Source: Asterochloris sp. CNOR1 (lineage: Eukaryota > Chlorophyta > Trebouxiophyceae > Trebouxiales > Trebouxiaceae). Taken from it: a stretch of 64,000 nucleotides of DNA. The notes below the pieces were generated by a model that searched no databases, was not told where the DNA came from, and saw only the letters and a program-made list of their open reading frames with translations. Shown one piece after another: positions 1-64,000 of this stretch (position 1 is the first letter of the stretch; each line of letters begins with the position of its first letter). The stretch is taken from assembly GCA_963969365.1 (NCBI GenBank), contig OZ017757.1, positions 1,178,001-1,242,000 on the forward strand, given 5' to 3'. The translations under genes and the position numbers were made by a program.

Positions 1-3000
1 CTGCTTGCTATATTCTTTATATTGAATTGTGTGTTGTGTTTGGCGGCAGCTCAGCGCCATTCTTTGCCAATAGCAATTGAAGTCTTTGGTACTTGTATGC
101 GCCACCTCAGTGGCTTAGCCCTCCTGGAATGGCAGCTTATCGGAAGTGCTGAGCTCATTTGTTTAGCATATGCAGGCGTGTGGGTGCAGGCATGACCAGC
201 GTGCTGCCCGCCCTGCAGGTGGCCATCCTGACCCCAACCTGATCTGTGCCAGGGAACAAGTGGTCGTCATGTGCTGTGCTGCCATGCAGGCACCAGACTC
301 CACGCCAGCAGGAGAATGGTGTCACCTTGCAGTGCATGCAAGCTGACACAGCCCTCCAGTGCACATTGAACCTAACACAGCCTTGCGGGGTGCGCATATC
401 TGGTAGCCCTGATGGGAATGGTGCCAGCAGCAACTGGGCCGCCACCAGACTGCAGGCTGCTCACTGATCACAGCTGCCTTGCAGGAATGGCACTCCCCAG
501 GAGGACTTTGGAGGGGGGCACCCTGACCCCAACCTGACCTATGCAAAGGAGCTGGTGGACATCATGTGGGGGAGCCACGCCCCCGACTTTGGTGCAGCCA
601 GTGACGGCGATGGTGACCGCAACATGATCCTGGGGAACAAGTTCTTCATTACACCGTCTGACTCTGTGGCCATGATTGCGGCCAATGCGCAGGAGGCAAT
701 CCCCTACTTCAAGGGCGGGCTCAAGGTGGGCGCTGCTCGGTGCATGCATCTGGGTCCACCACAGCATGGCCAGCTAGGTGGCTGCTGTGTGGGCGGTACA
801 AAGGTTGTTGGGCTGTGTGGTCTACTTTTGCATGATAAGTGGGGGCGTGGTGGAAAGCAGCACAAATGAGCTCAGCTGCTTTGTTGTCCCAAGGTCTGCA
901 GTTGCTGCATGCCACCTCACACAAGGCCATCCCCCTTTTCCAAAAGCGCTGGCTCTAGGTTGAAGGGCTGCCTGTTGTAGCCTGTGAATGTCTTGGACAA
1001 TCATGCAGAAGACAAGCACAAGCACGTCCAGCTGCAGTTTCGCAGCTTGCAGCTGCTGCAGGCTATTGCGCAGGGGTTGTACCTGTACGCAAGGGGGCAG
1101 TCTGGCTGGGTGGGGCCATAAGACTTGTGGTTTCAGGTATGGAGGTGACAGAGGCCAGACCAGAGAAGCCACGCTGCAGTCTCTGTCGGCAAGTCAGGCC
1201 ATGGGTGCTGTTCTGGTCAGACATAATTAGACACAGCCTTTCAGTGGCTTGCAGGGCTTTTGCTGAAGTGTTCTGTTCGTAGCATCCACATCAGTGTCTT
1301 GGGGCCATCTGCTGCAGAGTATAGCTCCCTCTCTCACCACCAAACACATGTCCTGCACTCCTGCTACAGGGTGTTGCACGCAGCATGCCCACCAGCGGCG
1401 CCCTGGACCGTGTGGCCCAGAAGCAGAAGCTGGACTTCTTTGAGGTGCCTACCGGCTGGAAGTTCTTTGGCAACCTCATGGATGCAGGTTAGCTGTACTC
1501 AGTAGTGCTCCTGCATACGATGGCTCTCACATCTCCACCTGAGGTGCCGATGTTGAGCAGGCCTGGCCCCCAGGCCTGCAGCAGCAATTTGAGCACATGC
1601 ACTTGTGGGATGCTTCTGGCAGCTCAAAGTGAGGCGACCCTGTGGACGCAGGTGGGCACGAGTCCTTTGGCATAGGGCAGTGGCCACGCGCTGCTGTTGT
1701 ATGCACACTTTGGGCCGCTGCTCTGTGTGCCAACTGATCTTGCAACACAGCCTGGCATGTGACGCAAGCCCCAACCAGGCTGGTGTGCTGCGGCCGCAAC
1801 CTGTGCCCGCAACATACTGCTCCAGTCTTGCTGGCTGCTGCTCGGTGGGGAGCCCTTGGGCATGACATCACTGCCTTGCCATTGTGTCCGACAGACAGGG
1901 GTCCCTGCACTGCAGGCCGCTGCTCTGTGTGCGGGGAGGAGTCTTTTGGCACTGGCAGCGACCATGTGCGTGAGAAGGACGGCCTCTGGGCTGTGCTGGC
2001 GTGGCTGTCCATCCTGGCTGCCAAGAACAAGAGCACAGAGGGCGGCAAGCTTGTGACGGTGGAGGACATCGCCATGCAGCACTGGAAGACATATGGGCGC
2101 AACTTTTTCAGGTGAGCAGTCCGGCCAGCACAGGTCACTGCTGACTGTGGGGTGGCAGAGCCTTGGTGGCTGCGGGCTTCAAAGGGCACAGGCCTTACCT
2201 GGGGATGTGTGGCATGGGACAATTGCATTTGCGCAGGCCTGGCAGCATCTTGCGGGGCTGAGGAACAGCTTTGGATGTAGTATTATATATTGCGCGGGGG
2301 CCCTGCTGGCTACTGTGGAGGGTACCACCATGCAGCATGGCCACATACGACCGCAACTCCTTCAGGTGAGCAGCCTGGCAGCCACAGGCTGCGCTTGAAC
2401 CACAGCATGGCCTGCAGGACAGCAGCCCTGCAGGCTGAAGGCTCACTGCGAGCAGGGTGCAACCGCAGTGCAAGCAGCGAACCTTTCCTTCCCTGTTCCC
2501 CCCCAGCACACAGGCTGGTGGCAGGGCCCACGTGCACTCGGTGGCTGGGTCGGGCACTGCACATGTGCCCTTAAAAGTTGTGCGGGAACGGCACCTTGTG
2601 CTGCCTTCTTTGCCTGCTGCAGCTGGCAAGGCTTGGAGCGACTGCCAGCATGCTCTGCACTGAATGCCTGCTGCTTTGGTTTCTGCCTGGGGTCTGGGGT
2701 CTGAATGGTCCTCCTCACCCTGCAGCCGCTATGATTATGAGGGCGTGGAGTCTGAAAAGGCTGAGAAGATGATGAAACATGTGCGTGACATCATCGCGAA
2801 GGCCAACAAGGGCGACTCCTTTGGCGATTTCAAGCTGGAGAAGGCAGACGACTTCGAATACAAGGTGTGCTCCCCGCTGTTGGGCAAAGCCTGGAATGCT
2901 ATCACCTGACTTGCCTTGGTGACGTGCGGCTGTGCTGCCTCGCTATGTCTGCATCTTTGACATGGAGGTTGGACAGATCGAGCACAGTGGGTGCTGATAC

Positions 3001-64000: not shown

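Follow-up and report, generated by a model that had tools for sequence, protein, structure and literature searches.

A number of introns in a 64-kb window (the whole stretch of DNA analysed, picked for its striking look) carry diverged copies of the edges of their own neighbouring exons. These copies, called echoes here, are local and direct, lie within the gene of their source exon, mostly comprise an exon edge together with its splice site, and run across exon-intron junctions, and the copy left in the intron decays nearly neutrally. With a probability of about 0.8, they derive from short tandem duplications that crossed a junction, were neutralised by splicing at the outermost sites and then decayed neutrally, the cohort now visible being mostly old. 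This account draws on 23 clusters of matches in the one window.

The window has a GC content of 55-65% (2-kb steps), and its first two gene models are as follows.

485..3621, plus strand: phosphoglucomutase (PGM), last six exons, 952 nt, clean open reading frame.
485-725, 1370-1487, 1916-2111, 2726-2864, 3167-3279 and 3477-3621, plus strand: the PGM exons, a hand-built chain.
3852..13498, minus strand: pyruvate-kinase-like (PK) gene, with Pfam PK and PK_C matches.

The PGM model matches the solved PGM1 (phmmer E 2.5e-121, residues 2-316), and the PK exons at 9298-13327 form one open frame (eight hand-built exons, no stop in the chosen frame), the exons of the lower part of this gene coming from HMM prediction alone. 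The TRAPPC13 exons have Pfam support, exon 15895-16062 matching TRAPPC13_M below the curated cut-off, but their chain is discontinuous, so an exon may be missing there. The S9 peptidase model comprises 20 exons (633 aa) without an internal stop, the cytochrome-b5 desaturase six hand-built exons checked by open frame, and the short-chain dehydrogenase (SDR) five exons, of which 38805-38978 is covered by a DHRS4 match. Two exon calls rest on open frame, being poorly covered by homology: desaturase 34811-35033 (residues 50-124), of which the FA_desaturase match (105-370) covers the last part only, and S9 28477-28558 (residues 266-293), which lies outside the best PDB match (356-612). Homology directly covers the source exon in PGM, PK 10039-10305, TRAPPC13 15895-16062 and SDR 38805-38978, and where such a match covers the exon, the identity of the exonic copy can be regarded as established. 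The curated set contains 43 introns from six genes, three of them GC-AG. An HMM trained on these genes recovers most of their exons, and the exons it adds, in coiled-coil genes and the lower PK gene, are predictions without homology support. Other genes in the window encode a Cyclin_D1_bind protein and a bacterial-type ribosomal L34, and minus-strand open frames at 24.0-24.8 kb resemble HCF164, a thylakoid thioredoxin-like protein, a likeness that, taken with the base composition, suggests a green alga. Of two viral-contig scans for a close relative, one returned a single PGM contig at 58% identity and the second none, so neither yielded a close relative.

Exon edges resemble their own introns far more often than expected. 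For each junction, a query of 50 exonic and 20 intronic nt was compared with the flanking intron of that junction, with 200 length-matched samples of other genes' introns as the control. Twelve of 84 junctions, six donor-side and six acceptor-side, reached p<=0.01, where about 0.8 were expected, and 17 of 84 reached p<=0.05; own-intron scores rose as high as 37, and control means were about 7-12. Against dinucleotide shuffles, 11 of 84 junctions stood at the floor of the test (p about 0.01), and with a reverse-complement target 3 of 84 reached p<=0.01, somewhat above the 0.8 expected. The preliminary description of this DNA had proposed exactly such a comparison of exon edges with own, other and shuffled introns, and the own-intron excess it anticipated was found: own hits are commoner than hits to unrelated introns, both the other-intron and the shuffle controls being lower. 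The echoes are thereby confirmed as genuine rather than a product of chance. The junctions at p<=0.01 fall in 12 of 43 introns and represent all six tested genes; the description of introns filled with echoes holds for these 12, the other 31 having none at that level. Introns with echoes are longer than the others (medians 471.5 bp vs 262 bp, Mann-Whitney p = 0.0002), in line with the suggestion that echoes lengthen introns, though long introns also give more room for them.

The spacing of the copies points in the same direction. An exhaustive ungapped self-comparison of the window (+1/-1, score >=22, spacings 10-63,899) yielded 40 same-strand (direct) high-scoring pairs (HSPs), of which 37 lie at a spacing d of 50-399 bp (about 22 Mcells) and none at d = 400-1999. 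The three beyond 399 bp (d = 2749, 6170 and 18410) come from about 2000 Mcells, roughly ninety times the search space; the density of direct matches is about a thousand times higher locally than at a distance. The pair at d = 6170 links two pyruvate-kinase-like stretches within one gene, and that at d = 18410, with a score of 22 equal to the threshold, begins in the TRAPPC13 echo region; the inverted control gave four HSPs with a top score of 26. The claim that each echo resembles only its own exon therefore stands, with the pair at d = 18410 as the one exception. A repeat family shared by introns of unrelated genes was not found in the window (three HSPs at d >=400, one of them intragenic), which rules out introner elements as the source there.

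Thirty-six HSPs within annotated genes group into 23 clusters, 19 involving an exon and four confined to introns, with spacings of 54-384 bp; 11 of the 19 lie on HMM-only exons (nine in coiled-coil genes, two in the lower PK gene), and the curated genes taken alone give eight exon-involving clusters vs one intron-only cluster (analyst's split). All seven genes named in the preliminary description contain echoes. The best HSP has 71-89% identity in 22 of 23 clusters and 100% in the remaining one, a bunching that indicates an uneven spread of ages, the near-perfect end of the described range being a single cluster. Gene-to-gene unevenness, which a uniform process does not predict, was also observed: the regions 17.0-25.4 and 40.1-50.2 kb (18.6 kb) hold one HSP cluster vs seven expected (P = 0.0075), and the S9 region two HSPs over 20 exons. 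The echoes are listed below (percentages are identities).

214..273, plus strand: echo of PGM exon 509-568, 295 bp upstream, 60 bp, 78%.
2296..2388, plus strand: echo of 2040-2134, a PGM exon end with its 5' splice site, lying 256 bp further downstream, 96 columns, 74%.
9806..9987, minus strand: 5' splice-site end of PK exon 10039-10305, echoed twice, at d = 228 (83%) and d = 114 (74%).
6771..7021, minus strand: 5' splice-site edge of predicted PK exon 7161-7333, echoed twice, at d = 384 (77%) and d = 196 (69%).
7721..7786, minus strand: echo of the 5' splice-site edge of predicted PK exon 7919-8075, d = 198, 71%.
15557..15843, plus strand: 3' splice-site edge of TRAPPC13 exon 15895-16062, echoed about three times in an upstream ladder with a step of about 98-124 bp, 71-78%.
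16221..16279, plus strand: echo of the TRAPPC13 exon interior (15991-16049), d = 230, 71%.
28361..28395, plus strand: echo of the 3' splice site of S9 exon 28477-28558, d = 86, 5 nt of exon, 83%.
35034..35164, minus strand: 3' splice-site edge of desaturase exon 34811-35033, echoed in a tandem array of 1.8 copies of a 119-bp unit, TRF 81%.
38607..38654, plus strand: 3' splice-site edge of SDR exon 38805-38978, echoed at d = 192, 77%.
50460..50923, plus strand: 5' splice-site edge of predicted coiled-coil exon 50229-50430, echoed at least three times in a ladder, 65-79%.
52903..52992, plus strand: 3' splice-site edge of predicted exon 53058-53215, echoed at d = 101, 77%.
53252..53294, plus strand: donor-side end of predicted exon 53058-53215 (positions 53165-53207), echoed at d = 87, 88%.
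54479..54513, plus strand: 5' splice-site edge of predicted exon 54282-54409, echoed at d = 101, 86%.
54920..55430, plus strand: 5' splice-site edge of predicted exon 54752-54875, echoed at least three times in a ladder, 67-87%.
55650..55736, plus strand: 3' splice-site edge of predicted exon 55813-55937, echoed twice, 79% and 76%.
58138..58255, plus strand: in-frame 54-bp (18-aa) tandem duplication in a predicted coding exon, starting from its 3' splice site, TRF 90%.
59552..59675, plus strand: youngest copy, an exact 61-bp unit present twice with TT between, 47 intron and 14 exon nt at a predicted 3' splice site.
62118..62544, plus strand: ladder of predicted coiled-coil exon 62122-62233, step of about 115 bp, 71-75%.

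Eighteen HSP comparisons at 16 junctions run across the splice site, and because the copies thereby include intron sequence, the duplication occurred at the DNA level and not through cDNA, which rules out retro-copies and cDNA re-insertion. The echoes PGM 214-273 and TRAPPC13 16221-16279 match the exon 13-24 nt inside the junction, the junction itself being excluded. Head-to-tail arrangement is clear for three arrays (34.9, 58.1 and 59.6 kb, TRF), older echoes being heavily decayed; gapped extensions (gap -2) reach 61-65% over long stretches but may partly be chance, and were not used as evidence. In the desaturase, 34920-35038 has been copied head to tail with a 119-bp period, the cluster also holding a 33-bp stretch at 97%, and the alignment suggests that the final stretch of the present intron, immediately ahead of the acceptor in use, was once exon sequence belonging to the upstream copy. 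The in-frame duplication at 58.14 kb indicates that exons are also hit and that a frame-keeping hit can survive. The exact 61-bp repeat ends 47 nt and 14 nt from the splice site rather than at it, and its two units with a 2-nt filler are consistent with break repair.

Differences between exons and echoes show little sign of coding constraint. Mismatches at codon positions 1, 2 and 3 number 62/300, 65/299 and 78/298, with 49/166 (0.295) at fourfold sites, 28/131 at other third positions and 126/593 (0.212) at positions 1-2. The similar mismatch at all codon positions indicates that the intronic copies decay nearly neutrally, as had been proposed. The exon itself seems to have gained changes chiefly at its fourfold sites; these exceed other sites by less than the two-fold ratio that unconstrained silent change in the exon would produce, making silent-site constraint or the choice of well-matching stretches likely. 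Among 205 exon-echo differences, 98 are GC-to-AT and 61 AT-to-GC, with 112 transitions and 93 transversions; a RIP-like mutation of duplicates was rejected, there being no strong bias after allowing for base content (analyst's estimate). Decoy splice dinucleotides, another expectation of the preliminary description, are retained in 15 of 18 comparisons at the 16 junctions, a retention that is partly compositional because CTGCAG is 13-fold over-abundant in the window (267 vs 20 expected; CTGCTG is also in excess).

The same description envisaged a continuing process centred on AG/GT junctions, and simulation does not bear out either element. Untargeted tandem duplications were placed on the real gene structure, decayed and scored by the same detector, those wholly inside exons or spanning more than one junction being dropped. 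With ages uniform from zero, nine settings gave an exon-involving share of 0.37-0.51, vs 19/23 observed (P <=0.0016), and a share of copies at least 0.9 identical of 0.26-0.39, vs 1/23 observed (P <=0.0093); five further age-zero settings with higher indels or longer units agree (exon share P <=0.0015). Constant-rate neutral models thus overpredict young copies and underpredict exon clusters in nine of nine and five of five age-zero settings, and a continuing process appears to fit poorly. Leaving out the in-exon case at 58138 gives 18/22 exon-involving clusters (P = 0.0029 at share 0.51) and a young share of 1/22 (P = 0.0116 at the mildest setting, 0.26), and the curated genes alone give 8/9 (P = 0.0225 at share 0.51); counting the 97% desaturase stretch as young (2/23) weakens the age test to P = 0.0014-0.040. 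Loss of unstable young copies was rejected by argument as the cause of their scarcity, because survival can only fall with age. An assembler could have collapsed and so hidden copies above about 95% (a guess), but models with ages below 0.05 or 0.1 excluded still yield too few exon clusters (P = 0.0002 and 0.0006); high-indel or long-unit settings at the age-0.1 cut-off gave P = 0.009-0.11 with KS p <=0.001, one setting escaping rejection on exon share (P = 0.11).

An older cohort, its fossils preserved by exons, would fit both age and exon share better. Untargeted duplications of a single age of 0.3 neutral substitutions per site gave exon shares of 0.84 and 0.76 (omega 0.2 and 0.4), vs 0.83 observed, and median identities of 0.75 and 0.74, vs 0.77 observed. 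With uniform ages above 0.2 both measures fit (P = 0.165, KS p = 0.196); above 0.15 the identity fits but the exon share does not (P = 0.0044), and above 0.25 the share fits better than the identity (KS p = 0.026). Other indel and length settings at the age-0.2 cut-off always produced enough exon share but matched the identities only partly, with KS p of 0.0035-0.17 from 7 to 113 simulated detections, some settings yielding only 7 or 13, so the pulse model fits imperfectly. In an old cohort, the exon excess would arise without any targeting of junctions, because one member of an exon-involving pair stays legible while pairs lying wholly in introns are lost at about twice the speed.

Such targeting is nonetheless the strongest competing explanation, although an unlikely one: a mutational process acting at a steady rate and directed to junctions by TGCAG/G or AG/GT motifs, exon-edge chromatin or R-loops. 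It would explain why exon-involving clusters exceed the 37-51% of untargeted steady simulations, and the retained splice dinucleotides and abundant CTGCAG are compatible with it. However, it leaves the scarcity of young copies unexplained, the old untargeted cohort already accounts for the exon share, and the one exact duplication has its ends well away from the splice site.

It is improbable that the echoes are functional, as alternative, mutually exclusive or decoy exons under selection for splicing regulation. Besides the retained GT and AG decoys, the ladder at 54.9-55.4 kb keeps a donor-like GAGGTG in several copies and contains HMM mini-exons (54937-54965, 55093-55162, 55319-55339 and 55423-55431), which are open by construction; some of its copies could be real mini-exons. 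Against this, the echoes in the inspected alignments are partial exons without the far splice site, and exon-echo differences reflect little coding constraint. The desaturase echo, which keeps the protein pattern, covers part of the exon only and contains an in-frame TAG stop, and the PGM echo at 2296-2388, which retains a decoy CAG/GTGAGC, has its frame broken by two one-base gaps. Apart from that ladder, no whole-exon copy with both splice sites and an open frame, as mutually exclusive exons would have, was found.

The preliminary description also held that the process could found new introns. Under the Rogers model, an exonic AGGT segment is duplicated in tandem and the intron itself is the duplicate, so that donor and acceptor surroundings should match in register. 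The sizes of the duplicated units (54-300 bp) overlap those of small introns, AG closes most exons ahead of the donor, and G follows 28 of 43 acceptors. Yet when donor and acceptor surroundings were compared at a spacing equal to intron length, in an ungapped test that misses very old foundings, none of the 15 top-scoring introns out of 43 exceeded every one of its mismatched pairings: for each of the two best, one pairing in 42 did as well or better, and the remaining 28 scored no higher than the fifteenth. Founding of these introns in this way is therefore very improbable, and, given that echo introns are longer, what is observed is that existing introns have grown, subject to the same caution about room. 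Chance or artefact (base composition, CTG/CAG richness, misassembly), to which the CTGCAG/CTGCTG excess and the slightly high reverse-complement control might point, is refuted as a general account, because the distant, inverted, other-intron and shuffled controls fail to reproduce the signal and assembly error would not be expected to yield 70-80% identical copies, and is possible for the single 61-bp exact repeat.

Collectively, these results favour a history in which short tandem duplications of about 55-300 bp, often about 85-125 bp, would have struck genes at more or less random places, some being repeated into ladders. Those wholly within exons would mostly have been purged, and those across one exon-intron junction would have been harmless because splicing at the outermost sites leaves the protein unchanged, an extra exon edge thereby being placed inside the intron. 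The extra copy would then decay neutrally and, as the real exon remains nearly constant, exon-derived copies would stay visible longer than intron-only ones. The visible cohort would be mostly old, at roughly 0.2-0.3 neutral substitutions per site, implying a past pulse or a rate that has since dropped. The mutational step may have been end-joining after fill-in of staggered breaks, as one fresh copy suggests; random placement and the pulse are likewise parts that we infer. A lineage-specific pulse, possibly favouring exon edges, that once swept through genes and enlarged a large share of their introns is a tentative extension.

Intron lengthening is often attributed to transposons; here, a sizeable share of the tested introns (12 of 43) carries copies of neighbouring exon edges instead, indicating that ordinary small duplications can lengthen introns with the protein unharmed. 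The slow change of the exon makes each echo an insertion fossil of roughly datable age, and the rate, size and history of intron growth could become measurable within one genome, offering a test of steady vs pulsed duplication. If the pulse is true, exons would serve as slowly changing references, and the age and tempo of intron growth could be read from a single genome. In genomes of this kind, gene finders will be confronted with half-exons and with decoy splice sites.

The underlying event, a short tandem duplication followed by splicing at the outermost sites, is already of a known kind, and plant work by Vaughn/Bennetzen and by Schiml reportedly describes small tandem duplications formed by fill-in and end joining. 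None of the matches listed dealt, in its title or abstract opening, with algal introns densely populated by exon-edge fossils, and no claim of priority is made. As outlined by Schimmel et al. (2021, PMC8355091), fill-in of staggered breaks with NHEJ produces small tandem duplications; the copies here are likewise direct and short, and clearly head to tail in three arrays, and the 2-nt filler at 59.6 kb suits end joining, but that outline concerns insertions below 100 bp at induced breaks, whereas spacings here are 54-384 bp and one fresh copy is readable. The Rogers mechanism, in the outline reviewed by Yenerall and Zhou (2012, PMC3443670), shares tandem duplication near AG/GT but requires that the intron be formed from a duplicated exonic AGGT unit, a signature not seen here among the best 15 of 43 introns. 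In Drosophila, novel intron positions are argued to have arisen via tandem duplication (Lehmann et al. 2010, PMC2891723, in outline); small coding duplications are similarly neutralised by splicing, with premature stops in the spliced-out copy, but no novel position was seen in the window. The summary of the potato RdRp case (Ma, Lan and Niu 2016, PMC4974935) describes a tandem genomic duplication across an intron-exon boundary that gave a new intron; in both systems the duplication spans the boundary and splicing moves exon-derived sequence into an intron, but in contrast to that single intron-creating event, the many, mostly old events here lengthen existing introns, a new intron being seen in none. 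Exonize (PMC12343006), as summarised, reports degenerate or intronic exon duplicates, which also place exon-derived sequence inside introns of the same gene; it works from exon matches, whereas the unit here is an exon edge with its splice site, often laddered.

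The pyruvate-kinase-like (PK-like) gene and the other features considered here are located as follows.

Features in the window (coordinates, strand, description)
3852-13498, minus: pyruvate-kinase-like gene, with an apparent PK-like repeat inside it
20925-21322: duplicate pair beyond the annotated genes, 66-67% identical, copies ~290 bp apart
25784 and 29754, plus: GC-AG introns (S9 introns 2 and 12)
33030, minus: GC-AG intron (desaturase intron 5)
40690-40869, minus: Cyclin_D1_bind exon, presumably FBXO31-like
47084-47185, minus: bacterial-type ribosomal protein L34 exon
54752-55440, plus: ladder of mini-copies bearing donor sites, coiled-coil gene

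Within the PK-like gene, a direct ungapped self-match (spacing 6170 bp, score 31) joins 4495-4593 and 10665-10763, and the predicted protein of the two parts is also alike; the gene seems to contain a second, degenerate PK-like half. The duplicate pair at 20925-21322 overlaps a weak exon prediction on the minus strand. Self-comparison of the window found no echo matches at 40.1-50.2 kb, the stretch containing both the L34 and Cyclin_D1_bind exons.

GC-AG introns constitute 3 of the 43 introns in the hand-built gene models, a share that looks high given the small intron number. The window as a whole has 267 copies of CTGCAG where its base composition predicts ~20, and TGCAGG, CTGCTG, and CAGCAG are in ~9-11-fold excess.

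In the coiled-coil gene, part of the mini-copies may be genuine small exons contributing coiled-coil repeats, in which case the gene would have grown via exon-edge duplication.
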